A DNA stretch of 64,000 nt from the NCBI RefSeq assembly GCF_001864895.1, contig NZ_MJGO01000041.1, forward strand, positions 148,462 through 212,461. Direction: 5' to 3'. This DNA is from Curtobacterium sp. MCBA15_009 (GTDB lineage Bacteria; Actinomycetota; Actinomycetes; Actinomycetales; Microbacteriaceae). The translations under genes and the position numbers were made by a program. The notes below the pieces were generated by a model. The model had not been told where the DNA came from and did no database searches. It saw only the letters and a list, made by a program, of their open reading frames with translations. Of this stretch, positions 4,567 to 52,574 are shown one piece after another; position 1 is the first letter of the stretch; every line of letters starts with the position of its first letter.

Positions 4567-5370
4567 GGGGTGCTCCTGTTCGTCGTGCGAGGGTGCTCGG
4601 TGTTCTCGTGTTGCTGGTGGTGCTCGATGTTCTCGTGTTCGTTGCCAACGGGGGAGCGCTGGTGGGGATTCCCGGTGGTGTTGGGCTTCCCGCGGTCGCC
4701 CCGGCTCTCGGTCGGGTGGTCGCCCTGCAGGCTGGGGTCCGTTGGGGGGTCGGCTTGCGGGCTGCTGTCTGGCGTCTGGCGCCTCTCCGTTGACGTTACG
4801 CGAAGGTGGCCGCCGCCGAGCGGGCGGTAGACCCGGGTCCTCGGAGGTGGTAGTCGGGTCTTTCGCCCGTTCGGTCTGACCTCGATCCGTTGTGGCGCTC
4901 GAGGCTCGCCCGGTGACTGTAGCGGTCCTGGTGGCGGAGTCGGGCGAGGGTGCCGGGTGCCGGGTGCCGGGTGCCGGGTGCCGGGTGCCGGGTATCGGGC
5001 GGGGTGCGGGGTGCGGCGGGTCGAGCGGGCGAAATGACGGAGTCGCGTCCGGGCTGCACTGAGCATCTCCGCCCGGTCAGCTCGAGCGCTCGCAGCGGGC
5101 CTGGTGTGCTCACACGGCAACGTCGTCGGAGGTGCCGAGCGGGCGGAGTTGCTGGGTCGAGCGTGGTCGTGACCCGGGTGTTTCGCCCGGTCGCGACGTC
5201 CCCGGTGGGCAAGGCGGCATGGCGGGATTTGTCGGCCGATGGGGTTCGGGGCGTTGGGTCGGATGCGCCGGGAAACGACGAACGCCCCGACTCCGTGGGG
5301 AGCCGGGGCGATTGTCTCGGGTTCGGGTGGTGCTGTTCGGTGCCCTCGGTGGGGCTTGTCCGAAGGGGAC
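4567..5370. repeat. Gene-free 800-bp gap with three 62-bp palindromes and simple repeats
   Basis: No convincing gene in 804 bp. Copies of the 62-bp palindrome family lie at 4815-4875, 5021-5081 and 5134-5195 (outer arms GAGCGGGCG and CGCCCGSTC-like). Bases 4590-4645 hold two copies of a GTGCTCGRTGTTCTCGTGTT unit. Bases 4950-4996 hold about six tandem GTGCCGG heptamers. Bases 5283-5310 hold the yceI hairpin. The gap contains some open frames, but they have no start signal and only repeat-encoded sequence. Confidence 0.85.
5283..5310 (-). terminator. Hairpin downstream of yceI
   Basis: CGCCCCGACTCC pairs with GGAGCCGGGGCG (one mismatch) across a very short loop, about 60 bases past the yceI stop codon on the minus strand. 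Likely intrinsic terminator without a U-run. Confidence 0.6.
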
Positions 5371-5931
5371 TCAGGCCGCCTGGAGGACGAACTGGACGTC
5401 GAGGTTGATGGTGACGTCGTTGCCCAGGGTGAAGCCGCCGGCCTCGAGCGCAGCGTTCCAGTTCACGCCGAACTCGGTGCGGTCGATCTTCGTCGTGGCC
5501 TCGGCGCCGAGCTTGACCTGGCCGTAGCCGTCGGTGGTGACGCCACCGAACTCGGTCTTCAGGGTGACGTTCTTCGTGACGCCACGGAGCGAGAGCTCGC
5601 CGTCGATGAGCATGTCGTCGCCGTCTTCGCGGATGCCGGTCGACTTGAAGGTCATCTGCGGGTGCTCCTCGGCGAGGAAGAAGTCGCCGGTCGCGAGGTG
5701 CTGGTCACGCTGCTGCTGCTTGGTGTTGACGCTGGCGACGTCGATCGAAGCCTCGAGCGTCGTGTCGAGGGGGTTCTCGGCGGTCACGAGGGTCGCGTCG
5801 AAGCGCTCGAAGGAGCCCTTGACCTTGCTGATCGCGAGGTGACGGACCGAGAAGGTGACCTCGGAGTGCGTCGGGTCGATCTTCCAGGTGCCGGTCTGGT
5901 AGCCGGGGATGGCGGAGGCGGTGAGCGTCAT
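5371..5931 (-). CDS. YceI family protein
   Basis: 186-aa single-domain lipocalin-like beta-barrel of the YceI family, which binds polyisoprenoid or other amphipathic lipids; the physiological role is unsettled. Hallmarks are GTWKIDPTHSEVTFSVRHL at the N-terminus, the central DVASVNTKQQQRDQHL and the C-terminal DRTEFGVNW motif. No signal peptide is present, so it is probably cytoplasmic, unlike the E. coli periplasmic homologue. The start is ATG 5931, preceded by AGAAGG. Two inverted repeats upstream (5973-5990 and 6018-6037) suggest repressor control. Confidence 0.92.
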   Translation of the reverse strand: MTLTASAIPGYQTGTWKIDPTHSEVTFSVRHLAISKVKGSFERFDATLVTAENPLDTTLEASIDVASVNTKQQQRDQHLATGDFFLAEEHPQMTFKSTGIREDGDDMLIDGELSLRGVTKNVTLKTEFGGVTTDGYGQVKLGAEATTKIDRTEFGVNWNAALEAGGFTLGNDVTINLDVQFVLQAA

Positions 5932-5972
5932 GAGGGTCCTTCTTCCGAACGAGAGTGGGTCGTGTAGCACGA

Positions 5973-6037
5973 TCGATGCGCCTGCATCGAGTTGATAGTA
6001 CGACAGTCTGCACCCTTTTGGTTGAAGCGTCAACCAA
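5973..6037 (-). promoter_or_regulatory. yceI promoter with two perfect inverted repeats
   Basis: On the minus strand TACTAT (6000-5995) is a good -10 candidate. A perfect 8-bp inverted repeat TTGGTTGA-AGCG-TCAACCAA spans 6018-6037, covering the expected -35 and the end of the neighbouring gene. A second repeat, TCGATGC-GCCT-GCATCGA, spans 5973-5990 near the predicted transcript start. TTGA-N4-TCAA symmetry is typical of MarR-type operators (family knowledge); the regulator is not identifiable. Confidence 0.5.
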
Positions 6038-6974
6038 TGTTCACTGTCATGTCGCGAGACCTTCGATCGTGCGGTCCGTGGATGCCGGTCTGCAACAGGC
6101 GTCTCAGGCGCTGGACGAAGCGTTCGACGCCGCGGCCCACGTCGACTGCGGTCGCGCGAACGAGCCACCAGTCGACGTCCTTCAAGTGCTCGCCTCGGGT
6201 GAGGTCCTTCCGGAACGTCGACGGATCGGTGCGGTGCAGGTCACTCTCGTACTCGATGGCCACACGGGCCTCGACGTAGGCGAGGTCCACGCACGCCACC
6301 CACCTGCCGTCGACGACCACGTCGTGGTTCAGCGACGGTTCCGGTAGCCCGTGCCGCACGAGGGCCAGCCGTGTCCTGGTCTCGCCAGGAGACCGTGACC
6401 CGGCACGGATCTCGTCGAGGGCGAGTCGGAGCTTCCGGACGCCCCTGCAGCCCCTCCGCTCGGCGACCGCTGCGGCGAGCTCGTCGAGTGTCGCCCATCC
6501 CAGCCATCCGACCAGCGCGTCACCTGCCACGATGAGCTCGTCGAGGGTGAGCATCGTCGCGAGCGCGACGAACGTGTCGGCGGGAGCGCTGAGACGGACC
6601 CCGCGGGATTGCGTCGCCCGCACCGTTCCAGCGCGCGCTCGATGGCCGACTGCCCCGCGAACGCGGAGCGCCTGGTCGGGTCCGATGGTCGTGACGTGCA
6701 GCCGAGGAGCGCCTTCGTGTCGTCGGGGCAGCGGGATGCCGAGGATCGCGGCCGCGGTGACGTGGCTGAAGACCTGATCGCGACGCAGCCGCGGAGCGAG
6801 CGCTCGTGCACGTTCCTCGACGGTGCGTGGCGTGGTCGCAGAACGGATGCCATGGAACGGCCGGACGAGGTCCTTTGCGTCGAGTCGACAGCGGGAAACG
6901 CCACGGTGCAGGGCATCGCGCACTCGGAACGAGGTGTCGCGGAGGGCCATGGGGAGCCGACGTCTGGCGGTCAT
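6030..6974 (-). CDS. AbiEi-antitoxin/DUF559-like hypothetical protein
   Basis: About 314 aa, of a type common in Microbacteriaceae. The N-terminal half resembles AbiEi-type antitoxin winged-helix proteins (FSHVTAAAILGIPLP), and the C-terminal part has a DUF559/very-short-patch-repair-like nuclease signature: VACVDLAYVEARVAIEYESDLHR with Asp, Glu and a following hydrophobic strand. No partner toxin is adjacent, so a toxin-antitoxin role is not supported. The start is uncertain (GTG 6980, ATG 6974 or ATG 6950) because none has a clear ribosome-binding site. Its stop lies inside the inverted repeat upstream of yceI. Confidence 0.7.
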   Translation of the reverse strand: MTARRRLPMALRDTSFRVRDALHRGVSRCRLDAKDLVRPFHGIRSATTPRTVEERARALAPRLRRDQVFSHVTAAAILGIPLPRRHEGAPRLHVTTIGPDQALRVRGAVGHRARAGTVRATQSRGVRLSAPADTFVALATMLTLDELIVAGDALVGWLGWATLDELAAAVAERRGCRGVRKLRLALDEIRAGSRSPGETRTRLALVRHGLPEPSLNHDVVVDGRWVACVDLAYVEARVAIEYESDLHRTDPSTFRKDLTRGEHLKDVDWWLVRATAVDVGRGVERFVQRLRRLLQTGIHGPHDRRSRDMTVNIG

Positions 6975-7591
6975 TGCCACAGCGTGTGGGCGAGCCGACG
7001 TGGTCGGGGTGCATCGACCTGCCGCTGTGGACGGTGGCGAGCGGAGCGCGAGTGTGGAGGAGTACCTGCGCTGCCGAGCGGGCGGAAACCCTGGTCGGAG
7101 GGGCGTGCGTACCCGGGTCTTTCGCCCGCTCGCCCACTCGGCCGCGCGGCAAGTGTGGCTCAGGGACGACGGCGAGGACGGCTCGGCCGCGGCGAGGGCG
7201 GGTCAGCGCGTCCTGCAGAGGACTCCGCTGCCGAGTGGGCGGAAAGGATCACCGGACGGACATGCAAACCAGGGCCTTTCGCCCGCTCAGCAGCCCGGCG
7301 GCCGGCGGCCAGGCGCGCAGCGGCCCAGCGGCCCGCCCGGCGGCCGGCGGCCAGGCGCGCAGCGGCCCAGCGGCCCGCCCGGCGGCCGGCGGCCAGGCGC
7401 CCGGCGGCCCGCCCATTAGGCCGCCCGGCGGCCCAGCAGGGCCATTTGGCCAGCAGCACCCCCTCCGATGCTCGCGCCCCTCCGTTGCCCGACCCCGCCC
7501 CGCCGCGCCCCGCTCACCCCCGCCCCACCACTTCTCCACAGGTACTCGCACGACCCCGCACGGCGGCGCGCGCTCCAGTAGCGTCGACACC
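6975..7591. repeat. Gene-free gap with two 62-bp palindromes and a 42-bp tandem repeat
   Basis: Copies of the 62-bp family lie at 7073-7133 and 7230-7291, the latter with a GAGTGGGCG variant left arm. Immediately after it, about 7296-7420 is a tandem array with a 42-base unit (two full copies and a partial third) containing GGCGGCCGGCGGCCAGGCG. The last 100 bases are C-rich and lead to a promoter-like TAGCGT at 7579-7584. No gene is supported. Confidence 0.8.
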
Positions 7592-8596
7592 ATGGAATTC
7601 AGGTACCTGGGCAACTCCGGACTCAAGATCTCCGAGATCACCTACGGCAACTGGCTGACGCACGGCTCGCAGGTCGAGAACGACGTCGCCACCCAGTGCG
7701 TGCGGGCAGCGCTCGACGCCGGGATCACCACGTTCGACACCGCGGACACGTACGCCAACACCGCCGCCGAGACCGTCCTCGGCGAGGCGCTCAAGGGCGA
7801 GCGGCGCCAGTCCCTCGAGGTCTTCACGAAGGTCTACTGGCCGACCGGCCCGAAGGGGCACAACGACGTCGGGCTCAGCCGCAAGCACATCATGGAGTCG
7901 ATCGACGGCTCGCTCGAGCGACTGCAGACCGACTACGTGGACCTCTACCAGGCGCACCGCTACGACCACGAGACCCCGCTCGAAGAGACCATGCAGGCCT
8001 TCGCCGACGTGGTCCGTCAGGGCAAGGCGCTGTACATCGGTGTCAGCGAGTGGAACGCCGAGCAGATCCGCGCCGGCGCGGCGCTGGCGAAGGAGCTCGG
8101 TTTCCAGCTCATCTCGAACCAGCCGCAGTACTCGATGCTCTGGCGGGTCATCGAGGGCGAGGTCGTCCCCGCCTCGAAGCAGCTGGGCCTGAGCCAGATC
8201 GTCTGGTCGCCCATCGCGCAGGGCGTGCTCACCGGCAAGTACAAGCCGGGTCAGCCCCTGCCCGAGGGTTCGCGAGCCACCGACGAGAAGGGCGGCGCGG
8301 ACATGATCAAGCGGTTCATGCGCGATGAGGTCCTCGAGGGTGTCCAGCGCCTCCAGCCCGTGGCCGACCAGGCGGGTCTGACGCTCGCGCAGCTCGCGAT
8401 CGCGTGGACGCTCCAGAACGAGAACGTCGCGAGTGCGATCGTCGGGGCCTCCCGCCCGGAGCAGGTCACCGACAACGTGAAGGCAGCGGGCGTCACGCTC
8501 GACGCGGACGCGCTGCGCGCGATCGACGAGGCACTCGGCGACATCCCGGAGCGCGACGCGTCGAAGACGGTCAGCCCCGCGTCGCGCCCCGCGTAG
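7592..8596 (+). CDS. Aldo/keto reductase (KCNAB/YghZ-like)
   Basis: 334-aa NADP-dependent aldo/keto reductase resembling the potassium-channel beta-subunit and YghZ/Tas group. Catalytic Asp and Tyr are in FDTADTYANTAAE, Lys in VFTKVYWPTG and His in YQAHRYD. The cofactor-binding C-terminal AIVGASRPEQ is present. TAGCGT lies 7 bases before the ATG with no Shine-Dalgarno, suggesting a leaderless mRNA. A single gene ending in a strong hairpin. Likely detoxifies small aldehydes or ketones, but the substrate is not known. It is only distantly similar to the other reductase at 2906. Confidence 0.92.
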   Translation: MEFRYLGNSGLKISEITYGNWLTHGSQVENDVATQCVRAALDAGITTFDTADTYANTAAETVLGEALKGERRQSLEVFTKVYWPTGPKGHNDVGLSRKHIMESIDGSLERLQTDYVDLYQAHRYDHETPLEETMQAFADVVRQGKALYIGVSEWNAEQIRAGAALAKELGFQLISNQPQYSMLWRVIEGEVVPASKQLGLSQIVWSPIAQGVLTGKYKPGQPLPEGSRATDEKGGADMIKRFMRDEVLEGVQRLQPVADQAGLTLAQLAIAWTLQNENVASAIVGASRPEQVTDNVKAAGVTLDADALRAIDEALGDIPERDASKTVSPASRPA

Positions 8597-8613
8597 ACGC
8601 AACCGCACGACGG

Positions 8614-8651
8614 ACGGGAGGCCCGTGGCGACGTCGCCACGGGCCTCCCGT
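8614..8651 (+). terminator. Hairpin, GACGGGAGGC family
   Basis: ACGGGAGGCCCGTGGCGAC folds back onto GTCGCCACGGGCCTCCCGT, a perfect palindrome beginning 18 bases after the aldo/keto reductase stop. Followed by TTCG, not a U-run. Confidence 0.85.
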
Positions 8652-8815
8652 TCGATCCGGAGCCGATCTGGAGCCGATCTGGACCCGATCCGGCCCGATC
8701 CGGCGTCGACCCGGCGTTCCCGGCGGATGAACGGCATGTGTCGCCAAGCTGGCAGACGCCTCCGTAAGCCTGTACCCCACCCAAACCCCATCGAGGAGTC
8801 CCCCGAATCGGGGGC
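8652..8815 (+). promoter_or_regulatory. Leader of the surface-glycan cluster
   Basis: Bases 8655-8712 hold degenerate tandem copies of a GGAGCCGATCT unit. GAGGAG at 8793-8798 looks like a ribosome-binding site but is 17 bases from the ATG; the gap holds a small hairpin CCCCCG-AAT-CGGGGG (about 8800-8814) that could bring it close or, if it pairs otherwise, hide it. No clear promoter hexamers were recognised. Confidence 0.4.
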
Positions 8816-9340
8816 ATGACCCGATTGGATACCCCCGTTCTGGTGTCGCCCGACACCGGGACGGTGGCGGCCGTGCGACCCGGCACGGTAGCGCGCCTGC
8901 TCGCCACCGCGAGGCAACTCGCGTCCTTCGGCACCATCGGTGCCGTCTGCTTCGTGATCGACCTCGGCGTCTACAACCTGTTGCGCGCAACGGTCATGCC
9001 CGACGGCCCCATCGCCGCGAAGATCGTGTCCGCCGTCGTGTCGACCGCGGTGGCGTGGCTCGGCAACCGGTTCATCACGTTCCGCGCCGAGCGCCAGATC
9101 GGCCGACGCGAGACCGTGCGCGAAGGCCTGCTCTTCGCTGCGACGAACCTCGTCGGCCTCGGCATCGCCGCGGCGTGCCTCTTCGTCTCGCACTACGTCC
9201 TCGGGTTCACCTCCACCCTCGCCGACAACGTCGCCGGCAACGGCGTGGGGCTCGTGCTCGGCACCGTGTTCCGGTTCGCCGCGTACAAGGCCCTCGTCTT
9301 CCGTTCCACCGACGCTCACGCGAAGGAGCTCGCCGAATGA
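8816..9340 (+). CDS. GtrA family membrane protein (probable polyprenyl-phosphate-sugar flippase)
   Basis: 174 aa with four predicted membrane helices (roughly residues 37-57, 68-88, 104-126 and 139-160) and the GtrA signatures FGTIGAVCFVIDLGVYN near residue 38 and WLGNRFITFR near residue 81. GtrA proteins help translocate lipid-linked sugars across the membrane. It opens the cluster and overlaps the GT2 gene by 4 bases (ATGA). With the polyprenol-phosphate mannose synthase at 16343 and the GT-C enzyme at 10854, it would complete a lipid-carrier sugar route (inference). Confidence 0.9.
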   Translation: MTRLDTPVLVSPDTGTVAAVRPGTVARLLATARQLASFGTIGAVCFVIDLGVYNLLRATVMPDGPIAAKIVSAVVSTAVAWLGNRFITFRAERQIGRRETVREGLLFAATNLVGLGIAAACLFVSHYVLGFTSTLADNVAGNGVGLVLGTVFRFAAYKALVFRSTDAHAKELAE

Positions 9341-12836: not shown

Positions 12837-13357
12837 CCCCGGCGACGGACGGGACCAGCCAGGGGCGCGAGGTGGCCGCGGCGTCCGTCCCCGCTGGGGA
12901 GTTCGCGTCCGCCGGCGCCAGCGGCACGGTCGGTCGTGTCTTCGTCGTCGCCGCCGGCGAACGGGCGAAATGCCCGAGTCCCGTCGGGAACGACCATGGT
13001 CTTCCGCCCGCTCGCCGAGGGGGACCGGAGGCAGGGGCGGGCACGACCGAGTCCGACACCGGCGAGCGGGCGAAATGCCCGGGTCCGGTCCAGGGCGACC
13101 GTGGTCTTCCGCCCGCTCGCCGAGCGGGACCGGAGGCAGGGGCGGGTGCGGCCGAACCCGTCGCCGACGAGCGGGCGGAATGCCCGGGTTCCGTCCGGGA
13201 CGACCGTGGTCTTCCGCCCGCTCGCGGAACCCGGACGGCCGCCGGCCCGAGCAGGACCAGGACCCCGACCCCGACCAGCACCCCGAACCCGACCAGCACC
13301 CTGCACCCGAGCAGCACCCCGCACCTGACCCGCACCACGACCCGAAGGAGCACGACC
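12837..13357. repeat. Gap with three tandemly spaced 62-bp palindromes
   Basis: Palindrome copies lie at 12953-13018, 13061-13123 and 13166-13226, with 105-108 bases between starts; the spacers GGGACCGGAGGCAGGGGCGG also match, so this is a true tandem duplication. About 13255-13350 is a CCGACCAGCACCC-type degenerate repeat. The whole stretch stays open in the frame of the next gene, and a GTG at 12833 overlaps the previous stop, so a long N-terminal extension is formally possible. I prefer the start at 13358 because a strong AAGGAG and a signal peptide sit there. Confidence 0.8.
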
Positions 13358-14233: not shown

Positions 14234-14239
14234 GCGCGC

Positions 14240-14298
14240 GGACGGGAGGCCCGTGGTGCGCGGGCAGATCGCCTGACGCACCCCGGGCCTCCCGTCCG
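14240..14298 (+). terminator. Imperfect hairpin, GACGGGAGGC family
   Basis: GACGGGAGGCCCG pairs with CGGGCCTCCCGTCC around a less well-paired 30-base interior, 8 bases after the DUF4397 stop. It may terminate or attenuate transcription before the GH8 gene, which has its own ribosome-binding site. Confidence 0.65.
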
Positions 14299-14367
14299 GC
14301 ACCGCCGGCGCGGCCGACACGGCCGCTGCAGCGCACGACGCAACCATCCACGGAAAGGCAGGCCCGC

Positions 14368-16298: not shown

Positions 16299-16342
16299 CC
16301 AACGAGCAACCGATACATTCGATGTGGAGCACGAGGAGCACC

Positions 16343-21731: not shown

Positions 21732-23959
<2,228 letters not shown>

Positions 23960-24087
23960 GTGGTCCTCCAGGTGTGGGTTTCGCCAACATATCGGTGTGA
24001 CCCGACCGCGTCCGCAGACAAGTCGAAGGTGTGGACTGCTCACGCGGGACCCCACTTGTGGAGGGATGGACGAGTAGCGTCACGCCC
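23960..24087. promoter_or_regulatory. Divergent promoter region of treXYZ and the GerW-like gene
   Basis: 128 bp between divergent genes. Plus-strand TAGCGT at 24075-24080 sits 7 bases before the GerW-like ATG. On the minus strand GGAGG (about 23965-23969) is the ribosome-binding site of glgX. The glgX promoter itself could not be assigned with confidence. Confidence 0.5.
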
Positions 24088-24417
24088 ATGGCCAACATCG
24101 TGTCCCAGATCGCAGATAAGGTCCGCCCGACCGGCGTCTCCACGAACTACGGAGATCCCGTCGAGGTCGGCGACCAGACCATCATCCCGGTGTCCCTCGG
24201 CTGGTTCGGCTTCGGCGGCGGCGGGGACGACGAGAACGGCGGCGGCGGGGGCGGCGGGGGCGGCGGCGCCTCGGTGCCCGTCGGCGCGTACGTCCGTCGG
24301 CCCGGCCAGGACCTCGAGTTCGAGCCGAACCTCATCTCCCTCGTCGCGGTGAGCATCCCGCTGGTCTGGGTGGCCGGCAAGGCGCTCAGCAAGGTGATCC
24401 GCGCCCTGAAGAAGTGA
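24088..24417 (+). CDS. GerW (YtfJ)-like small membrane protein
   Basis: 109 aa. It resembles the GerW/YtfJ family, named for a Bacillus spore-germination protein: an IIPVSLGWFGFGGGG strand, an Asp-rich then ten-residue glycine run and a VPVGAYVRRPG strand, followed by a C-terminal membrane helix (about residues 80-98) and a basic end. The organism is not a spore former by any evidence here, so the sporulation name is misleading and the function is unknown. TAGCGT lies 7 bases before the ATG: a probable leaderless mRNA. Ends in a perfect hairpin. Confidence 0.8.
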   Translation: MANIVSQIADKVRPTGVSTNYGDPVEVGDQTIIPVSLGWFGFGGGGDDENGGGGGGGGGGASVPVGAYVRRPGQDLEFEPNLISLVAVSIPLVWVAGKALSKVIRALKK

Positions 24418-24429
24418 GCCACTGACGGA

Positions 24430-24467
24430 ACGGGAGGCCCGTGGCGGATCCGCCACGGGCCTCCCGT
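24430..24467 (+). terminator. Perfect hairpin, GACGGGAGGC family
   Basis: ACGGGAGGCCCGTGGCG pairs perfectly with CGCCACGGGCCTCCCGT around GATC. It begins 13 bases after the GerW-like stop and separates that gene from the TPP riboswitch. Confidence 0.88.
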
Positions 24468-24501
24468 CCGTCACGCGGTCGCGACCGCGTCTAGACTGCG
24501 A

Positions 24502-24600
24502 GGACACACACGGGAGTCCGGGACCACCGGGCTGAGAGGGAGCGAACGGCGCTCCGACCGTCGAACCTGATCCGGATCATGCCGGCGCAGGGAGGAGTCC
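24502..24600 (+). promoter_or_regulatory. TPP riboswitch (THI element)
   Basis: Conserved thiamine-pyrophosphate aptamer blocks are present in order: CGGGAGTCCGGG, CCGGGCTGAGAGGGAG, a variable hairpin (GGAGCGAACGGCGCTCC) and TCGAACCTGATCCGGATCAT followed by GCCGGCGCAGGGAGG. The ribosome-binding site GGAGGAG (24591-24597) is the 3' end of the aptamer itself, 9 bases from the ykoE ATG, so ligand binding should directly mask translation initiation. A closing stem GGAC (24502)/GTCC (24597) is possible. The downstream genes are a thiamine/HMP-type ECF transporter, as expected. Confidence 0.93.
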
Positions 24601-24606
24601 AGCACC

Positions 24607-25245
24607 ATGTCTTCTGGCACGTCCACGAACGTCCCCACCAGCCCTCGACGATCGCTGCGGTGGCGCGTCGTCGACATTGTCGTCGCGAGCGTCCTCGCCG
24701 TGGCGCTCGGCGTCGTCTTCCGCCTCTGGGAGTTCGGCTACGAACCGATTAGTGTCGTCATGGACCTGGTCCTGCCGGGCACCAAGGCCCTGTTCGGCGG
24801 TGTCTGGCTGCTCGCCGGCCCCGTCGTCGCCATCGTCGTCCGGAAGCCCGGCGCTGCCCTCTACGGCGAGATGGTCGCGGCCTCGGTCGAGGCGCTCTTC
24901 GGCACCCAGTGGGGGTGGCTGACGCTCGAGGCCGGGCTCGTGCAGGGCCTCGGCGCCGAGGTCGTCCTCGCCCTGTTCCTGTACCGCGTGTACCGCCTGC
25001 CCGTCGTCGTGCTCGCCGGTGCGGCGGCCGGCCTCGCGCTCGGCATCAACGACACGGTGCTCTGGTACCCCGGGCTCGACGTCGCCTTCAAGCTCGTCTA
25101 CGTGGTCTGCGCGATCATCTCCGGCGCGGTGATCGCCGGCGCCGGCTCGTGGGCCGTCGTCCGGGCGCTCGCCCGCACCGGCGTCCTGTCGTCCTTCGCG
25201 GCCGGGCGAGAGCACACGCGGCGCTCGCCGCGCGCCCTGGTGTGA
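24607..25245 (+). CDS. ykoE: ECF transporter S component, YkoE type (thiamine/HMP)
   Basis: 212-aa integral membrane substrate-binding subunit. Five or six hydrophobic segments fill residues 20-190. The family stretch WEFGYEPISVVMDLVLPGTKALFGGVWLLAGPV (split motif, residues 44-76) and LEAGLVQGLGAEVV are typical of YkoE. YkoEDC transports thiamine or its pyrimidine precursor HMP. It sits directly behind a TPP riboswitch and overlaps the next gene (GTGA), which supplies both ATPases and the T component. Confidence 0.92.
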   Translation: MSSGTSTNVPTSPRRSLRWRVVDIVVASVLAVALGVVFRLWEFGYEPISVVMDLVLPGTKALFGGVWLLAGPVVAIVVRKPGAALYGEMVAASVEALFGTQWGWLTLEAGLVQGLGAEVVLALFLYRVYRLPVVVLAGAAAGLALGINDTVLWYPGLDVAFKLVYVVCAIISGAVIAGAGSWAVVRALARTGVLSSFAAGREHTRRSPRALV

Positions 25246-28205
25246 CGGCGTCGGGTCCCGCCGGCACGGGGGCGGCCCGCATCGCCTTCCGCGGGTGGGG
25301 GTGGCGGTACCCGGAGCGTGCCGAGTGGGCGGTCCGTGGCGTCGACCTGACCGTCGAGCCGGGGGAGCGGGTCGCGGTCGTCGGACCCTCCGGCGCCGGC
25401 AAGTCCACCCTGCTCCGGGCCGTCGCCGCAGTGCTGCCCGACGAGCCGGACGCCTCCGACGACACAGCGGCCTCGGCCTCGGGCACGGTCCTCGTCGACG
25501 GCGTCGACCCCCGCTCCGTCCGCGGACGGGTCGGCCTCGTCATGCAGGACCCCGAGGCGCACACCGTGATGTCCCGCATCGGCGACGACGTCGCGTTCGG
25601 CTGCGAGAACACCGCCGTGCCGCGGGACGAGACCTGGGCGCGGGTCGTCGAGGCCCTCGGCGTCGTCGACCTCGACCTGCCGCTCGACCGCTCGACCACG
25701 CAGCTGTCCGGTGGGCAGCGGCAGCGGTTGGCGCTCGCGGGCGTGCTCGCGATGCGCCCCGGCGCACTCGTGCTCGACGAACCCTGCGCCAACCTCGACC
25801 CGGCCGGCGTCGTGCAGGTCCACGACGCCGTCCGGGCACTGCTCGACGAGACCGGGGCGACGCTGCTCGTCGTGGAGCACCGCATCGGCACCTGGCTCGA
25901 CCTGGTCGACCGGCTCGTGCTCCTCGAGCCCGCCGGAGGCGTCGTGGCCGACGGCCCCGTGGCCGAGGTGCTCGCCGCGCACGGCCCCGCGCTCACCGCC
26001 GCGGGCGTCTGGGTGCCCGGGGCCGAGCCGGCGCGGGGGTCGGCGCGCCGGGGTGGGGGCGCGGGTGCGGGTGCGGGCGCGGGTGCGGGTGGCCGCGGGG
26101 GGAGCGGGGTGATCGGCCGTTCTTCGCGAGCGGGCGGAATGCCCGGGTCGGTCGGCGGGGAGAGTGCGGCATTCCGCCCGCTCGGTGAGCCCGCGGCCGA
26201 GGGGGCCGCCGTGAGCGCGAGTTCGAGCGAGAACTCGGGCTCGGCTGCGGACGCTGGCTCGGGTGCGCGTCGTGGGCGAGGTCCTTCCGCGCGAGCGGGC
26301 GAAAGACCTGGGTCGTCGAGTGAGAGCACTGCGGCATACCGCCCGCTCGGCGAGTCTGCGGCCGACGGAGCTCCAGGGAGACCGCGTCGGGTTTCGGGTG
26401 GCCGCCGTGGGTGGGCCCTGCCTGCGCGAGCGGGCGAAAGCCCCGGGTCCTCCGTCGAGAGCAGTGCGGCATTCCGCCCGCTCGACGTACCGAGCGCCCT
26501 CGACACCGCCGCCGAGCCCGGCGCCCAGCAGGACGTCGTGCTGCTCGAGGCCGTGGGACTCAGCACCGGACGAAGCACCACGTGGGGCAGCGCGGCCAGC
26601 CCAGCCAGCGCAGCCAGCAGCCCCGCGAGCACGTCGGGCCCCGGTCGCTCCGCTGCCCAGGCGGTCGGCCGGGGGATCGACCTCCGGGTCCGGGCCGGCA
26701 GGGTCCTCGCGATCACCGGCCCGAACGGCGTGGGGAAGACGACGCTCGGCCTGACCCTCGCCGGGCTCCTGCCCCCGGTCGCCGGGACACTCCGTGCCAC
26801 CGACGCCCTGACCCGCGGTGCGGGTCCGGCGCCACACGCCTGGTCGAGCCGCGTGCTCGCAGCCCGCATCGGGACGGTCTTCCAGGACCCCGAACACCAG
26901 ATCGTCGCCCGCACGGTACGCGACGAGGTGCTCGCCGGTCCGCGTGCGCTCGGTCACGCGGACACCGCGGACGGCCTGGAGGCCCTGCTCACCACCTTCG
27001 GGTTGGCCCACCTGGCCGACGTGGACCCGTTCACCCTGTCCGGCGGCGAGCAACGTCGGCTCGCGATCGCCTCCGCCATCGCGACGCGCCCGCCGGTGCT
27101 CGTCCTCGACGAACCGACGTCCGGTCAGGACCGAGCGACGTGGGAAGCCGTCGTGCAGCGCCTCGGGGCCCTCGCCGACGACGGGACCGCGGTCGTCGTC
27201 GTCACGCACGACCGTGACCTGGTGCGGGCGCTCGACGCCGACGAGGTGGTGCTCGGTCCGGACGGGATCGTGCCCGTGCCGGCAGCGGACGGCGATGTGG
27301 CAGTGCTCGCGCCTGTGCGGCGGCCGGACGTGGCCGGTCTCGTGATGAGTGCGGGCGCGATCCTGCCCCTGGGACGCGACCCGGAGCAGGACGCGCCGAC
27401 CGTCTCCGAGACGCGGGCGGTGTCGTCGGGGCGGGTCGTGCCTCCCGGCCCGTCCGCGACCCGTGGGGTCGACGGCGTGCAGCCGGTCGCTTCGTTGCTC
27501 GGGGTGCTCGCGCTCGGGGTGTGCCTGGTGCTGAGCCTGGACATCGTGTCGGCGGCCGTCGCCCTGGCGATCGAGGTCGTGCTGCTGCCGCTCCTGCGGA
27601 TCCCGGTGTGGACGCTGCTGGTGCGGACGTCACCGGTGCTGGTCGCCGCGCCGCTGACCGCGGTGAGCATCGCGCTGTACGGCAGTCCCTCCGGTCGGGA
27701 GTGGTTCGACCTCGGCTTCGCACACGTGACCGACGGGTCGCTGACGCTCGCGCTCGCCACAGCGCTCCGTGTGCTGGCCGTGGGGGTGCCGGCGCTGGCG
27801 CTCTTCGTCCGGGTGGACCCCACCGACCTGGCGGACGGGCTCGCCCAGGTGCTGCGGCTGCCCGCGCGGTTCGTGCTCGGGGCGCTCGCGGCGATCCGCA
27901 TGACGACGCTGCTCGTCGACGACTGGCGGCAGCTCGCGATGGCCCGGCGGGCGCGGGGCCTGGCGGACTCGGGGCGGCTGCGGCGTGCGGCGTCGATGGC
28001 CTTCTCGCTGCTCGTGCTGGCACTGCGCCGGGCGACGACGCTCGCGGTGGCGATGGAGTCGCGGGGGTTCGGCGCTCCCGGGCCGCGGACCTGGGCCAGG
28101 GCGGCGCGGTTTTCGTGGCCGGAGTGGGCGATGGTCGGCGTGCTCGTCGGCATCGGGGCGGCGTCGATCGCCGTGGCGGTCGTCGCGGGGACCTGGCGTG
28201 GCTGA
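25242..28205 (+). CDS. Fused ECF transporter ATPase-ATPase-T component (YkoD-YkoC type)
   Basis: 987 aa. Domain 1 (about 10-255) has Walker A GPSGAGKST (48-56), signature LSGGQR (155-160) and Walker B ALVLDEP. Domain 2 (about 435-680) has Walker A GPNGVGKTT (493-501), signature LSGGEQR (599-605) and Walker B VLVLDEP. From about 715 to 987 there is a membrane EcfT domain with the coupling motifs RRARGLADSG and ESRGFGAPG. YkoD normally carries only the two ATPase domains, so the T component is fused here. The linker (260-430) is low complexity and carries three translated copies of the 62-bp palindrome. GTG start overlaps the ykoE stop. Energises thiamine/HMP uptake. Confidence 0.9.
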   Translation: MTASGPAGTGAARIAFRGWGWRYPERAEWAVRGVDLTVEPGERVAVVGPSGAGKSTLLRAVAAVLPDEPDASDDTAASASGTVLVDGVDPRSVRGRVGLVMQDPEAHTVMSRIGDDVAFGCENTAVPRDETWARVVEALGVVDLDLPLDRSTTQLSGGQRQRLALAGVLAMRPGALVLDEPCANLDPAGVVQVHDAVRALLDETGATLLVVEHRIGTWLDLVDRLVLLEPAGGVVADGPVAEVLAAHGPALTAAGVWVPGAEPARGSARRGGGAGAGAGAGAGGRGGSGVIGRSSRAGGMPGSVGGESAAFRPLGEPAAEGAAVSASSSENSGSAADAGSGARRGRGPSARAGERPGSSSESTAAYRPLGESAADGAPGRPRRVSGGRRGWALPARAGESPGSSVESSAAFRPLDVPSALDTAAEPGAQQDVVLLEAVGLSTGRSTTWGSAASPASAASSPASTSGPGRSAAQAVGRGIDLRVRAGRVLAITGPNGVGKTTLGLTLAGLLPPVAGTLRATDALTRGAGPAPHAWSSRVLAARIGTVFQDPEHQIVARTVRDEVLAGPRALGHADTADGLEALLTTFGLAHLADVDPFTLSGGEQRRLAIASAIATRPPVLVLDEPTSGQDRATWEAVVQRLGALADDGTAVVVVTHDRDLVRALDADEVVLGPDGIVPVPAADGDVAVLAPVRRPDVAGLVMSAGAILPLGRDPEQDAPTVSETRAVSSGRVVPPGPSATRGVDGVQPVASLLGVLALGVCLVLSLDIVSAAVALAIEVVLLPLLRIPVWTLLVRTSPVLVAAPLTAVSIALYGSPSGREWFDLGFAHVTDGSLTLALATALRVLAVGVPALALFVRVDPTDLADGLAQVLRLPARFVLGALAAIRMTTLLVDDWRQLAMARRARGLADSGRLRRAASMAFSLLVLALRRATTLAVAMESRGFGAPGPRTWARAARFSWPEWAMVGVLVGIGAASIAVAVVAGTWRG
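26125..26487 (+). repeat. Three in-frame 62-bp palindromes inside the ECF ATPase gene
   Basis: Copies at 26125-26185, 26290-26354 and 26425-26487 have outer arms GAGCGGGCGRAA and TWCCGCCCGCTC. Each is translated in the same frame as a RAGxxPGS...ESxAAxRPL peptide (residues about 296-314, 351-369 and 396-414). They lie in the linker between the ATPase domains, where insertions would be tolerated. They belong to the family found between genes elsewhere in the window. Confidence 0.85.
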
Positions 28206-28899: not shown

Positions 28900-28924
28900 G
28901 ACCCCAGAGCCCCTGAGCCCCGGG

Positions 28925-29060
28925 CGAGGCGAACCGGGCCAGGCGCGGCCCCTGGTCAGGCGTGGCCCCTGGCCAGGCGCGACCCGGGCCAGGAACGACC
29001 CGGGCCAGGCGTGGCACCGGGTCCGACGTGGCCCCGGGCCGCACGTCGCCCGGCGGAGCG
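28925..29060. repeat. Degenerate GGCCAGGCGTGGCCC tandem repeat
   Basis: The gap between the convergent kinase and permease genes consists of about seven degenerate copies of a 17-19-base unit GGGCCAGGCGYGRCCCC. The units are partly self-complementary (GGGCC/GGCCC), so they could fold as a terminator for both genes; no other terminator is visible here. Confidence 0.7.
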
Positions 29061-29077
29061 GGCGCGGGGCCGCTCGC

Positions 29078-30475: not shown

Positions 30476-30576
30476 GCCTCAGGAGCATGGTCGCGTCCGG
30501 CGTCGTGCGGAACATCCCGCGTAACGCGAGGTCACGTCGCTGTCGTCGGGCGGTGCCCGCCGACCACGATGGAGGC
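30476..30576. promoter_or_regulatory. Divergent promoter region, permease / monooxygenase operon
   Basis: 101 bp. GATGGAGGC places GGAGG 4 bases before the monooxygenase ATG at 30577. TCCTGAGGC precedes the permease ATG on the minus strand. No clear operator palindrome was recognised. Confidence 0.4.
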
Positions 30577-33260: not shown

Positions 33261-33351
33261 GGCGGGGTGCGGTTGCGCGGGGCGTCGCTGGCGGCTGGTA
33301 GCTGCGCGCTGTCCGGCTGCTGACTGCTGGCGGGTGGCGGCTTGCTGGCCG

Positions 33352-33696
33352 CTACGCCCAGCCGAGCTCGTGGAGCCGCTCGTCGTCGATGCCGTAGAAG
33401 TGGCCGATCTCGTGCACCAGGGTCGTGTGCACCTCGTCCTTGAGCTCGTCGAGGGTGTCGCACTCGGCCAGGTGCTGCTTGCGGAACACCACGATCCGGT
33501 CGGGCAGCTCGCCGAACCCGTACTGCCCGCGCTCGGTCGCCGCGACGCCGTCGTACACGCCGAACAGGTCGGAGCCGTCCTCAGGCTCGTCCTCGACGAC
33601 GAAGACGACGTTGTCGAGCCCGTCCACCATCTCGTCGGGCAGCAGGTCGAGTTCGTCGGTCACGAGTTGCTCGAACTCGTCGGCGGACATCTCCAT
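33352..33696 (-). CDS. Zincin-like metallopeptidase family protein
   Basis: 114 aa. Member of the small actinobacterial metallopeptidase family (DUF1025/zincin-like): the sequence ends with TTLVHEIGHFYGIDDERLHELGW, in which HEIGH is the zinc-binding HExxH. The N-terminal EFEQLVTDELDLLPDEMV helix is typical. The substrate is unknown and some members may not be proteolytic. The ATG overlaps the stop of the acyltransferase gene by one base (TGATG), so translation is probably coupled. Confidence 0.88.
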   Translation of the reverse strand: MEMSADEFEQLVTDELDLLPDEMVDGLDNVVFVVEDEPEDGSDLFGVYDGVAATERGQYGFGELPDRIVVFRKQHLAECDTLDELKDEVHTTLVHEIGHFYGIDDERLHELGWA

Positions 33697-35789
33697 CACG
33701 GGCTCGATCGTCGCACACCGGGCAGGACGTCTCCCTGACGCAGCAGATCGAGGAGCGCCGGAGCCGAGGCGACGGACGCCTCGGGCGTGGTGTGCACCGG
33801 ATCGAAGCGGGTCAGCACGGAGTCGATGACGAGTGGACAGGACCCGGCGGCGCACCAGAGCGGCGTCGAGTCGAGCACGGTCGTGTCCTGCACGTCCGCG
33901 AGCAGCCCGGTGAGGGCACGGATCTGCGTCCGGGCGACCTCGTCCCCCGAGCGACAGTCCTGCGGACCGCGGGTGCCCGCGACGCAGCTGACCGGTGCGT
34001 ACCCCGGCGGAGTGGCCGGCACGACGACGACTCGGCCGACGTGCTCCCGCACGGCTGCGATCATGTCGCGTGTCCCCGACGCGTAGTCGTCCTCCGCGAT
34101 GGACTCGAGGCTCGGATCGTCCTGGTCCCAGAACCGGTTCGTGACGACGAGCAGCTCCGGTTCCGTCCGCTCCAGCTCGTCGACGACCTCGGCGTTGTGC
34201 GCCGCGCAGCTCTCGGTGTCCGACGGCAGCGCCGTCGTCGAGAACGGGCACCCGATCTGTGCGCCGTTGCGCACCCGCAGTCGCGCGTCCGAGTCCTCGG
34301 CGAGTGCCCGCCAGCCCGGCGCCGAGAACGCGCCGGTCGAGTCGCCGGTCAGCAGGACGTCGGTGGTGCGGCCGTCCTCCGGCCCCCAGACGCAGCCGTC
34401 GCTCCGCCAGTCCGCCCCGATCAGCGAGCACCCGAGGGTCGAGGCCCAGTCCGAGGTCTTCGTCAACGAGTCCACGTACCCGCTCGCGCTGATCGCATCG
34501 GCGCTCGGCGTCAGGTCTGCCGGCCAGGTCCGGGCGCCCGCGCCCGCGGCCACATCCCGCGCGCGTGCCCGCAGCGTCGGGAAGGCCTCGTCCTCCGCTG
34601 GCAGGGCCTCGGCCGCAGCAGCCGGCACGGCCGGGAGCGGCCGCACGCGTTCCGCAGCGAACGACGTCGTCACGACGGTCAGCACGGTCATCGCCGCCAG
34701 CCCACCGAGCTGCACGCGCAGGCGGTTCTCGCGCAGTGTCCTCCGCAGGCCGGGTCGTCGGAACACCGTCTCGAGGGTCGCGTGGCTCGCGATCGCGGTG
34801 ACCAGGGCCAACGCGACCACCACCGGCATCGGGACCGGCGCGACGAGCGGGAGCAGCAGGATGAACGGCCAGTGCCAGAGGTACAACGAGTAACTGATCG
34901 TCCCGAGCCCGACGAGCGGCCGCCACCGGAGCAACGCTGCCGCCCGAGGCCCCGCACCGGAACCCGAACCCGCCAGCAGGACGAGCGCGGTGCCGGCCGT
35001 CGGGACGAGCGCGAGCGGCGCCGGCACGCCCGACGACTCCCGCCCGATCAGGACCGACGCGCTGACGGCGACGAGCCCGACGACCACCATGCCCTCGCCG
35101 AGCAGCGGGCGGACGCTCCGACCCCGGGCACGGAGCGCGGCCAGGGCGACGAGGACCCCGAGCCCCAGCTCCCAGGCGCGGGTCGCCGTCGAGAAGTACG
35201 CCGCAGCGGGGTCCGCCGACACCGCGAGGAACGCCCAGACGACCGAGCAGAGGACGAGGACGCCGAGCACCGTCGCCGTCAGGCGGGTCCGCCCGGGGTT
35301 GGTCCCGCGGCCGAGCAGCACGACCATCAGGATCGGCAGCACGAGGTAGAACTGCTCCTCGACGCCGAGCGACCAGAAGTGCTGGAACGGCGACGGTGCG
35401 GTGGTCGCCGCGAAGTAGTCGGTGCCCTCGGCCGCGAGCCGCCAGTTCTGCAGGGCTCCGGCCGACCACAGCGCGTCGGTGAGGACCGTCCCGAGGCGGC
35501 TCGGGGTCAGCAAGAACCAGGCCGCCGTGACCGTCGTCACCAGCACGGCGAGCGACGCCGGCGCGAGCCGTCGGACCCGCCGGAGTGCGAACGCACCGAG
35601 GCGGATGCGCCCCGTCCGAGCACGCTCGCGCAGCAGCCCGGTCGCGATGACGAACCCTGAGATCACGAAGAAGACGTCGACCCCGAGGAAGCCACCCACC
35701 GGCCACCGGAAGGCGTGGTCCAGCACGACCGCGAGGACGGCGAGTCCGCGGAGCCCTTGGATGTCCGGTCGGAGGCGGGAAGTCTGCAC
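33696..35789 (-). CDS. Acyltransferase-3/SGNH fusion (OafA/YrhL type)
   Basis: About 697 aa. Ten or eleven membrane helices in the first 400 residues form the acyltransferase-3 domain: RPDIQGLRGLAVLAVVLDH (catalytic-type His), GGFLGVDVFFVISGFVIA and FQHFWSLGVEEQFYLVLP. A C-terminal extracytoplasmic SGNH esterase-like domain has LLTGDSTGAFS (block I) and DPVHTT (block V Asp-x-x-His). Such proteins O-acetylate cell-surface polysaccharide, peptidoglycan or lipids. I take GTG 35789 as start: TACGGT lies 6 bases upstream as in other leaderless genes here and the family N-terminus follows; GTG 35834 is the alternative. Confidence 0.9.
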   Translation of the reverse strand: MQTSRLRPDIQGLRGLAVLAVVLDHAFRWPVGGFLGVDVFFVISGFVIATGLLRERARTGRIRLGAFALRRVRRLAPASLAVLVTTVTAAWFLLTPSRLGTVLTDALWSAGALQNWRLAAEGTDYFAATTAPSPFQHFWSLGVEEQFYLVLPILMVVLLGRGTNPGRTRLTATVLGVLVLCSVVWAFLAVSADPAAAYFSTATRAWELGLGVLVALAALRARGRSVRPLLGEGMVVVGLVAVSASVLIGRESSGVPAPLALVPTAGTALVLLAGSGSGAGPRAAALLRWRPLVGLGTISYSLYLWHWPFILLLPLVAPVPMPVVVALALVTAIASHATLETVFRRPGLRRTLRENRLRVQLGGLAAMTVLTVVTTSFAAERVRPLPAVPAAAAEALPAEDEAFPTLRARARDVAAGAGARTWPADLTPSADAISASGYVDSLTKTSDWASTLGCSLIGADWRSDGCVWGPEDGRTTDVLLTGDSTGAFSAPGWRALAEDSDARLRVRNGAQIGCPFSTTALPSDTESCAAHNAEVVDELERTEPELLVVTNRFWDQDDPSLESIAEDDYASGTRDMIAAVREHVGRVVVVPATPPGYAPVSCVAGTRGPQDCRSGDEVARTQIRALTGLLADVQDTTVLDSTPLWCAAGSCPLVIDSVLTRFDPVHTTPEASVASAPALLDLLRQGDVLPGVRRSSP

Positions 35790-35883
35790 CGCTCGACCGT
35801 ACGAGGGCCGGGACGCTCGGACCGAACATTCCACATGTGTGGCCGCCTGCAGCTGGGGATGACCTGCTCGTCCGATGCACGAC

Positions 35884-35914
35884 GAAGGCCCCGGTCCATC
35901 GGACCGGGGCCTTC
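35884..35914 (-). terminator. Terminator downstream of tRNA-His
   Basis: GAAGGCCCCGGTCC pairs perfectly with GGACCGGGGCCTTC around ATC. It begins about 20 bases beyond the tRNA-His 3' end on the minus strand and lies upstream of the acyltransferase gene. Confidence 0.85.
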
Positions 35915-35933
35915 AGCTGATCTCGATCAGCAC

Positions 35934-36010
35934 TGGGGTGAATAACGGGTCTCGAACCCGCGACCTCCTAGACCACAACCAGGCGCTCTACCAACTGAGC
36001 TATATCCACC
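35934..36010 (-). tRNA. tRNA-His (anticodon GUG)
   Basis: Cloverleaf on the minus strand with G-1 (36010), acceptor GTGGATA/TATTCAC, D arm GCTCAGTTGGTAGAGC, anticodon arm CCTGG-TTGTGGT-CTAGG with anticodon GTG, T arm GCGGG-TTCGAGA-CCCGT, C73 and an encoded CCA. The extra G-1 paired to C73 is the His identity element. Next to orn, as in many actinobacteria. Confidence 0.97.
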
Positions 36011-36083
36011 ATGTGTGCACCGGCGACCGGCGCGACCACTCAATACTAGTACATACCGCGACCGGTGCCGACCACCCGTGTCG

Positions 36084-36722
36084 TCACTCGGCCGCAGGCT
36101 GGGCCAGGCGCGGTTCCCACTTCTCGACGACCTCGGCCTGGACCGCACGGACGTCGTCGGTCGTCGGGCCGGGCTCGGCGACGAAGCCGGCGCGACGGTA
36201 GTACTCGAGCTCGCGGATCGACTCGAGGATGTCCGCCAGCGCGCGGTGGCCGCCGTGCTTCTCCGGCGAGTTGAAGTACACCCGCGGGAACCAGCGACGG
36301 CAGAGCTCCTTGATGCTCGACACGTCGACGCTGCGGTAGTGCAGGTGGCCGTCCACGCGGGGCATGTACTTCGACAGGAACGCGCGGTCGGTGCCGATGG
36401 TGTTGCCGGCCAGGGGAGCGGACCCCTCGGCCGGGACGTGCTCGAGGATGTACTCGAGCACCTGGTACTCGGCGTCCGCAAGGCTCACGCCGTTCGGGAT
36501 CTCCTCGATGAGCCCCGAGGTCGTGTGCATGTTCGTCACGAACTCGTTCATGTTGTCGAGCGCCGACTGGTCCGGCTTGATGACGATGTCGAACCCGGGG
36601 TGCACGGGCTCGAGGTCGAAGTCGGTGATGACCACGGCCACCTCGACGAGTTCGTCGACCTCGAGGTCGAGGCCGGTCATCTCGCAGTCGATCCAGACGA
36701 GGCGGTCATTCGCGGTTGCCAT
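36084..36722 (-). CDS. orn: Oligoribonuclease
   Basis: 212-aa DEDDh 3'-5' exoribonuclease that degrades 2-5-mer RNAs, including pGpG from cyclic-di-GMP turnover. DEDD residues: LVWIDCEMTGLDLE (Asp, Glu), the Asp of NTIGTDRAFLSKYMP and the final KHGGHRALADILESI (His, Asp). The C-terminal extension after the exonuclease domain (about residues 180-212) is normal for actinobacteria. TAGGAT sits 7 bases before the ATG with no Shine-Dalgarno, so the transcript is probably leaderless. Confidence 0.97.
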   Translation of the reverse strand: MATANDRLVWIDCEMTGLDLEVDELVEVAVVITDFDLEPVHPGFDIVIKPDQSALDNMNEFVTNMHTTSGLIEEIPNGVSLADAEYQVLEYILEHVPAEGSAPLAGNTIGTDRAFLSKYMPRVDGHLHYRSVDVSSIKELCRRWFPRVYFNSPEKHGGHRALADILESIRELEYYRRAGFVAEPGPTTDDVRAVQAEVVEKWEPRLAQPAAE

Positions 36723-37706
36723 GCCCTCGATCCTATTGCCGACCGCCGACGCCCCTGGCGCACGCTGTCGGTGACCGTGCTGACCCGCGCCCGTGCCGCG
36801 CTGGTCGACGGGACGCCCGCCCTCGGGAACGGGTGCTCGTCGTCGCGGACCGGTCCCGCCTGGGCCCTCCGGGCAGCGGCGGCGGCGGCAGCGGCCGCAG
36901 TGGCGTCAGCGGCGGCGGCCGGCGAACGCGAGCGGGCGGCAGCGGCGGTCGGCGAACGCGAGCGGGCGGAATGCCGTACTCGCCAGCGTGGTGACCCGGG
37001 TCTTTCGCCCGCTCAGCGCGGCGTCCCGGTCGGAACCCGCCGGCGGGCCCGAACGGTACGGGCTGGAGCGGTGTCGCCAGCGTCCCGTTCGATACCCGTC
37101 CACGTACCGGGCCGGAGCGGGCCGGAGCGGCGGCGCGGGTAGCCGAGCGGGCGAAATGCCGCACTCCTCCGTGGCATGGCCCTGGTCTTTCGCTCGTTCA
37201 GCGCACGCGCTCCGTCCGCAACCGGTCCGTGAGCCTGTCTCCGACCTGTCCCCGACCAGTCCGCGGCCAGTGACGAGCCGTGCAGAGGAGCCCGGCCACC
37301 CGAGCGGGCGGAAGGTCGCAGTGGCGGGCCGTGGGCACCCGGGTCTTTCGCCCACTCAGCCCAGGGCGCCCCCGCTCAGCCCAGCGCGCCCTGGCTCGGC
37401 CGGGTTGCGACCTGGGCCGCGGCGCCTAACGTCCGATGTCCATCCGGCACCGGCACCGGCACCGGCACCGGCACCGTCACCTGCATCACGAACGGGCGAA
37501 AGGCCTGGGTCGCCGAAGCGATCACCCGGGTCTTTCGCCCGCTCGGCACACCGGACCCTCGCGCAGGACGAGCACGACCCACCCCCGGAACGCCCTCCCG
37601 GAACGCCGCCTGAGAACCCGGAGACCCCCGAAGGCCCCGGAGACCCCCGAAGGCCCCGGAGACCCCCGAACCCCCGACCCCCGACCCCCGAAACCCCCGA
37701 CGCCCC
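36723..37706. repeat. Gene-free 980-bp gap with four 62-bp palindromes
   Basis: The longest gap in the window. Palindrome copies lie at 36952-37018, 37142-37203 (decayed right arm CGCTCGTTC), 37300-37361 and 37488-37549. Other content: a GCGGCGGCAGC-rich tract at 36870-36960 that includes a duplicated left arm, four tandem GGCACC hexamers at 37446-37475, and a GACCCCCGAAGGCCCCGGA tandem array at about 37618-37705 ending at the MFS gene. No coding region has a credible start or codon pattern. Confidence 0.82.
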
Positions 37707-52520: not shown

Positions 52521-52537
52521 GGTGACCGGGTGGCGGG

Positions 52538-52574
52538 CGGGAGGCCCGTGGTCGTGTCCGCCACGGGCCTCCCG
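52538..52574. terminator. Bidirectional hairpin, GACGGGAGGC family
   Basis: CGGGAGGCCCGTGG pairs with CCACGGGCCTCCCG around TCGTGTCCG, between the convergent SDR and globin genes. Confidence 0.85.

Follow-up and report, generated by a model that had tools for sequence, protein, structure and literature searches.

A family of paired-box elements was found to be confined to one chromosome zone in Curtobacterium sp. MCBA15_009 and, with one outlying match, in its mapped relatives. The stretch analyzed here (the window, 64,000 nucleotides) comprises bases 148,462 to 212,461 of contig NZ_MJGO01000041.1 (C41; 296,777 bp), part of a 3.65-Mb genome in 41 contigs (the source genome, G000). It contains 15 copies of a unit in which a 13-bp box, CGAGCGGGCGRAA, is followed at a fixed distance by its inverted copy. 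We consider it an even call that these copies form arrays of dyad sites for a putative DNA-binding protein, which would mark a chromosome domain and work like parS or matS. An earlier note on the same DNA had described the copies as imperfect palindromes of about 62 bp, resembling repetitive extragenic palindromes and bacterial interspersed mosaic elements (REP/BIME) or miniature inverted-repeat transposable elements (MITEs). Its observation was confirmed, all 15 copies being present with starts no more than 7 bases off, and its interpretation was partly supported.

When the arms were scored separately, the core unit measured 57 or 58 bp rather than 62 bp and consisted of the 13-bp box and its inverted copy at a start-to-start distance of 44 or 45 bp. 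An open scan of C41 over distances of 13 to 119 bp gave 15 inverted box pairs at 45 bp, 9 at 44 bp and at most 2 at any other spacing. A 400-kb portion of a second species, G001, gave 18 pairs at 45 bp, 5 at 44 bp and none at other spacings. Behind each outer box lies an inner box (approximately TGCCnGGGT), which is weaker and varies by species, and in 203 elements from 14 genomes or loci the center of the unit was unconstrained. Of these elements, collected by a scan that permitted 55 to 59 bp, 115 measured 57 bp, 77 measured 58 bp and 11 measured 56 bp. The outer arms that the note had called shared do define a real family; 6 of the 15 copies carry both 10-base arm cores unchanged, and the other 9 are altered. 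Likewise, its two arm types correspond, in this species, to two variants of the inner sequence; other species carry different inner sequences. Across the genome the strict paired pattern occurred 9 times, with 6 of these occurrences inside the window, versus 0 for the reversed pattern, so that the arm search suggested in the note came out above chance. A single arm with up to one mismatch gave 40 matches in the window (21.8 expected; maximum of 100 shuffles, 34) and was less striking than the paired pattern.

A sequence-only model built from the 15 window copies was used to search the source genome. All 20 strong copies were located between positions 56,244 and 186,007 of C41, about 130 kb of 3.65 Mb, and the best match off this contig had an E value of 0.037. 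Chance-level numbers elsewhere had been regarded in the note as fatal to the family; outside this region the search turned up no further strong copies. With the same model (E up to 0.001), every match in G001 lay at 998 to 1,297 kb of 3.70 Mb, those in G020 at 2,380 to 2,895 kb of 3.52 Mb, and those in G007 at 949 to 1,196 kb of 3.71 Mb with one outlier at 625 kb. A genus-wide model (E up to 1e-4) placed the matches at 1,118 to 1,451 kb in G006, 1,196 to 1,487 kb in G012, 1,071 to 1,213 kb in G017 and 981 to 993 kb in G015. The zone was thus 130 to 515 kb wide in seven mapped genomes and 12 kb wide in G015. These searches scored the best 150 first-look candidates per genome, and weak copies elsewhere could be missed. 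In the eight mapped genomes the matches found are restricted to one chromosomal domain that is shared among relatives, the 625-kb match of G007 being the outlier. C41 also carries a diverged cluster at 138,911 to 139,597 (locus L029), with eight scored sites and boxes such as GAGCGGGCGGATCC and GAGCGGGCGTTTT.

To place the zone on the chromosome, dif and parS were located by consensus words, and the positions given here are those that we take to be dif and parS on these patterns. A dif-like sequence was found at 1.906 Mb in G001, 2.069 Mb in G006, 2.149 Mb in G012, 2.028 Mb in G017 and 1.794 Mb in G015; G006 carries a second, different dif-like match on contig C2. The dnaA gene is at base 1 in G001 and G007, a parS core is found no more than 4 kb from the record end in G006 and G012, and base 1 was assumed to be the origin for G017 and G015. 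In the five genomes with a dif-like sequence, the zone is at 0.52 to 0.70 of the distance from the origin to dif and lies 0.6 to 1.0 Mb before the latter. By the dif consensus used, the zone in these five genomes is therefore the middle of one replichore, neither origin nor terminus, and terminus sites are ruled out by this distance. The terminus could not be placed from GC skew, which was too weak across 20 G007 samples.

The exact paired pattern GAGCGGGCG-N35-39-CGCCCGCTC was present in 50 of 60 Curtobacterium genomes, at 3 to 26 places each; the reversed control pattern occurred at one place each in 3 of the 60. Of 23 same-genus genomes other than the source genome, 19 were matched by the window-copy model, as was 1 of 15 genomes belonging to other families in the order (G036, with a single weak match at E 2.1e-4). 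In a family survey of 249 genomes, all 5 Curtobacterium genomes matched, and 7 of the 244 others had a single match, versus 16 of 244 for the control pattern. The RNase_T-family exonuclease gene beside the last cluster of the window, which we take to be Orn, encodes a protein of 212 amino acids that shares 97% identity with a protein from Curtobacterium sp. PhB115; among the 80 relatives retained, the nine best-ranked come from Curtobacterium. None of 71 Orn loci from other genera had a scored site, compared with 6 of 9 named Curtobacterium loci. In line with the note, which knew of none, no published description of the family turned up in the literature searched, which left subscription papers mostly outside its scope.

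Gene calls made in this analysis placed 12 of the 15 copies between genes and 3 in the linker of a single open reading frame, a fusion of an ABC ATPase and CbiQ, in agreement with the earlier description. Its clustered repeat family with copying was also borne out by tandem copying inside the clusters, with units of about 93, 105 and 143 bp. The gap between Orn and an MFS gene is occupied by sites in G000, G001, G006, G007, G012, G015 and G020, and the ABC/CbiQ linker in G000 and G001. Other clusters are species specific: the gap of the source genome corresponding to a cluster at 1,140 kb of G017 (1140.2 kb) measures 115 bp, and that corresponding to a cluster at 1,037 kb of G007 (1037.1 kb) measures 56 bp. 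Clusters thus occupy orthologous gaps with gains and losses, and the species-specific ones stay inside the zone. At approximately 1,218 to 1,295 kb of contig C1, G001 has a series of genes, possibly a genomic island inside the zone, most of which are absent from the stretches of G010, G019 and C41 that were compared (C41 is not known to extend there).

Ten genomes lacked the exact pattern, and the zones of two of them (G010 and G019) were examined. Box pairs showed no pile-up at a spacing of 44 to 45 bp in either zone, and most zone genes were kept in order. Measured between tblastn matches, the Orn-MFS gap is 81 bp in G010 and 225 bp in G019 versus 984 bp in the window, the YceI-aldo/keto reductase gap 195 and 200 bp versus 1,660 bp, the MDMPI-YceI gap 359 and 155 bp versus 804 bp, and the gap of the 1,156-kb cluster of G001 217 and 118 bp versus 991 bp. 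For the third cluster of the window (cluster C), the flanking genes on both sides are missing from both genomes. Empty sites, which the note had proposed to look for, were therefore found as short gaps between the same genes in four of five cases. A tree of five zone proteins, however, placed G010 (with L114 and L116) and G019 (with L118) as two separate nests inside site-bearing lineages, so that the short gaps read as loss and not as absence before insertion. The tree has 21 tips, some with part of the proteins only, and supports of 58 to 100; the site-bearing loci L115 and L117 branch deepest, and L114, L116 and L118 are known to be site-less only across 14 to 21 kb around Orn. The simplest reading is that the sites were present in the common ancestor and were then lost at least twice. 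Two separate site-less lineages would be expected if a trans-acting partner had been lost twice.

At least five further palindrome families were observed in samples and the zone of G001 and in loci of G007, G010 and G019, and the set differs between species. They are F2 (GCACAACC, 60 bp), F3 (CGAGGTCGCACGA, 57 bp), F4 (CGAGACGCCGCC, 53 or 72 bp), F5 (GTGAGCAG, 53 bp) and F6 (GTGCGAGGTTCC, 61 bp); in the parts of G001 seen, F5 and F6 are scattered as 11 and 12 single copies, respectively, up to 1.51 Mb. The F2 family of G010 was considered as a replacement motif and rejected, since it does not coincide with the gaps of the main family (F1). In G019, for which no F1 sites were found, one of two F3 arrays (contig C1, 1,881.7 to 1,882.2 kb, locus L204) occupies a gap that holds F1 arrays in the sister genomes G007 and G020, which would fit a switch of binding specificity.

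Next to their restricted placement, the elements showed signs of selection. In compared parts of six genomes, at spacings of 43 to 45 bp, we counted 45, 41, 34 and 25 box pairs with 0, 1, 2 and 3 total mismatches (at most 0.5 expected per class). The numbers with 4, 5 and 6 mismatches were 3, 2 and 6, compared with 2.9, 2.1 and 4.6 expected from other spacings. Old neutral repeats would leave a decayed tail; lightly decayed copies are nearly absent. Between species, identity of matched elements was 93.5% for the outer boxes, 76% for the inner boxes, 66% for the center and 68% for the linkers; this comparison was biased, as only pairs in which each member scored as an element could enter it. 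An alignment by flanks only, with the elements masked, bracketed 3 elements and all 3 were kept, too few to be used.

Half-sites that are independent of each other, lie at a fixed spacing and recur in arrays suggest a protein that binds double-stranded DNA as a dimer or tetramer. A single zone in the middle of a chromosome arm, with clusters gained and lost beside unrelated genes, suggests something that belongs to the zone as a whole rather than to individual genes. We therefore hypothesized that each copy may be a dyad site for a sequence-specific DNA-binding protein, in which two inverted half-sites (the outer box and the inner box) at a fixed distance would be gripped together by a dimer or tetramer. 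Arrays of 2 to 8 sites in intergenic gaps, and in one tolerant protein linker, would favor cooperative loading. Bound at these mid-replichore arrays, the protein could mark or fold the chromosome domain; conceivable roles there would be condensin loading or unloading, bridging or positioning.

Several known systems offer a comparison. The parS sites bound by ParB lie by the origin and are likewise palindromic, clustered in one region and common to relatives. The paired-box sequence, however, is unrelated to the parS core GTTTCACGTGAAAC, which was found once each in 3 of 11 genomes searched (in G000 on a contig other than C41, and near the record ends in G006 and G012). In G006 and G012 the zone is 1.1 to 1.5 Mb from this core, and identity with parS was ruled out by sequence and place. 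The datA and DARS loci of E. coli are clusters of protein-binding boxes at places that are also neither origin nor terminus; unlike these single loci, the Curtobacterium sites form many clusters across a zone, and their boxes differ from the DnaA box (TTRTCCACA). For matS, one source (PMC3116907) describes a 13-bp motif with 23 copies, restricted to the Ter region of E. coli and found in silico as a domain-specific motif. The same source reports that MatP was identified as its binder in DNA-binding assays, and that SlmA sites are excluded from the terminus (PMC3116907). As far as that description goes, both systems have a short palindromic motif in tens of copies, found in one large region only, with a distribution that is kept in relatives. 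The Curtobacterium site differs in its length of 57 to 58 bp, its two boxes, its dense arrays, its occurrence in an actinobacterium and its place, which is mid-replichore and not at the terminus.

The most serious rival, which we nevertheless hold to be unlikely, is a nonautonomous mobile repeat: a MITE-like element with a mover other than the REP-associated tyrosine transposase (RAYT), which spread long ago and only locally and whose transposase recognizes the conserved arms. It would account for the species-specific presence or absence at single gaps (as at 1140.2 kb of G017 and 1037.1 kb of G007), for the lack of enlarged blocks in site-less genomes, and for the several palindrome families of similar size in the genus, some of them dispersed. 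The 13-bp inverted boxes at both ends are, moreover, terminal inverted repeats, as in MITEs, which are short elements as well. Target-site duplications and arm covariation were examined in the 136 copies left after deduplication, drawn from 14 genomes or loci, with right arms permuted within each genome. Duplications of 2 to 10 bp remained at about the shuffled level (at most 4 versus 1.5 expected, for k = 4; shuffle maximum, 6), which counts against a MITE. The RAYT family (Y1_Tnp, PF01797), the only transposase family searched, was absent from all 60 Curtobacterium genomes, and a control search was positive in 5 of 14 well-known genomes; the arm-flanked RAYT gene envisaged in the note thus did not materialize, nor was a mobile parent identified by this search. 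Mobility also sits poorly with copies held to the corresponding zone in the mapped species and with the small number of lightly decayed copies. Overall, left and right arms did not covary: the outer boxes were paired at 0.924 versus 0.926 after permutation, and the inner boxes at 0.564 versus 0.581. Hairpin controls did covary in their inner arms (F2, 60 bp, 10 copies, z 3.1; F6, 61 bp, 12 copies, z 3.8). REP/BIME and REPINs, which are mobilized by RAYT, are also short, palindromic, intergenic and clustered. Unlike these dispersed families of high copy number, the sites are not found genome-wide, and the lack of RAYT, of covariation and of dispersal rules out REP/BIME, so that neither resemblance drawn in the note was upheld. 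GTAG- and CGTC-tagged REP families have been described in a source whose main text does not contain the string "actinobact" (PMC3733652).

Lower still we place a local satellite, in which repeats of little or no function would multiply through slippage, unequal crossing-over and gene conversion between arrays close to one another, and the zone would be their place of origin by chance. The tandem units within the arrays, the unrelated minisatellites in the same gaps and the partial homogenization of inner sequences within each species all agree with this. A neutral satellite should not preserve boxes alone, though, and here linkers and centers have diverged while the outer boxes persist at their fixed distance (by the ascertainment-biased identities given above); the intermediate decay classes are missing as well. 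It appears improbable, too, that the sites are operators of a transcription factor whose regulon is clustered in the zone by chance. A dyad of independent half-sites would suit a dimeric regulator, but the clusters lie in convergent, divergent and codirectional gaps and in one coding linker, beside unrelated genes, most of which persist in site-less G010 and G019 (except those around cluster C), and other species place some clusters in different gaps of the zone. RNA hairpins (terminators, mRNA stabilizers or a small RNA family) are the most improbable: the single strands of all six copies folded, out of 15, beat shuffles, as any palindrome would, but the window has three Rfam matches at gathering score and none falls at a site, overall covariation is lacking, mixed-arm copies leave inner positions unpaired, and the sites also occur in a coding region and at a fixed spacing, and we discarded RNA on the Rfam and covariation results.

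Several observations weigh against the proposal of protein-bound, domain-marking arrays, beginning with the folding result just mentioned. No binding protein was found: 38 of 245 C41 genes had no counterpart in either the G010 or the G019 zone, 46 of 245 were shared with the compared parts of G007 or G020, and the overlap was 0; the partner-gene comparison from the G001 side gave no candidate either. Site-less species live without the system, and other palindrome families of 53 to 61 bp occur in the genus. The zone mapping covered eight genomes and left out drafts with sites on several contigs (e.g., G002, G005, G021, G056 and G068). Among the 28 columns tested, inner column 17 covaried (z 2.8) and two columns anticovaried (z -2.7 and -2.1). 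For the F2 control, shuffling was done across genomes; F5, whose arms are nearly constant, showed no covariation (z 0.2). Box pairs with 7 and 8 mismatches exceeded expectation by 9.7 and 7.5, and decayed or variant copies may exist in these classes. In the identity comparison, 5 of 19 genome pairs gave no matched elements, and genomes were reused. Finally, distances between neighboring sites tended toward multiples of roughly 10.3 bp (R 0.49, n = 137), and phasing by the DNA helix is suggestive only. After near-equal spacings were collapsed (nine genomes or loci), R fell to 0.36 at 10.4 bp (n = 63; Rayleigh p of about 3e-4); the best R over periods was 0.39, compared with 0.23 on average and at most 0.40 in 2000 jittered sets. 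Phasing in the source genome alone was not significant (p 0.44), and second neighbors peaked at 11.25 bp.

Paired-box sites in the window (positions counted from its first base; a dot marks sites for which no strand is assigned).
Feature	Position	Strand	Length (bp)	Cluster	Remarks
Dyad site 1	4817..4873	.	57	A	MDMPI-YceI gap
Dyad site 2	5022..5079	.	58	A	
Dyad site 3	5136..5193	.	58	A	
Dyad site 4	7075..7132	.	58	B	YceI-aldo/keto reductase gap
Dyad site 5	7232..7289	.	58	B	
Dyad site 6	12958..13014	.	57	C	105-bp tandem unit
Dyad site 7	13063..13119	.	57	C	
Dyad site 8	13168..13224	.	57	C	
Dyad site 9	26127..26184	.	58	D	Linker of ABC/CbiQ fusion open reading frame, 25242-28205
Dyad site 10	26292..26349	.	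58	D	
Dyad site 11	26427..26484	.	58	D	
Dyad site 12	36959..37015	.	57	E	Orn-MFS gap
Dyad site 13	37144..37200	.	57	E	
Dyad site 14	37301..37358	.	58	E	
Dyad site 15	37489..37545	.	57	E	

The enlarged gaps also hold minisatellites unrelated to the sites, at window positions 4948-5003 (7-bp unit), 7293-7418 (42-bp unit), 37446-37483 (6-bp unit) and 37597-37672 (19-bp unit). Hairpins of the type CGGGAGGCCCG...CGGGCCTCCCG were observed at 2834-2898, 8595-8659, 24411-24475 and 52519-52583; they are frequent in site-less genomes as well and are probably ordinary terminators. A thiamine pyrophosphate riboswitch (24501-24610, plus strand) is located upstream of the transporter operon at 24700-28205, which encodes the fused ATPase/CbiQ protein with cluster D in its linker.

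What stands out is a motif that is restricted to the middle of a replichore, occurs in the matching zone throughout a genus and is lacking from entire genomes in two lineages. More tentatively than the reading of the arrays as protein-binding sites, we propose that it is a genus-wide landmark that is neither origin nor terminus: mid-replichore, centromere-like arrays of 58-bp dyads that would load a putative protein and organize one chromosome arm. The motif itself could serve as bait for the partner protein, as was done for MatP. If the proposal is true, it would suggest that a bacterial chromosome arm can carry address sites of its own.

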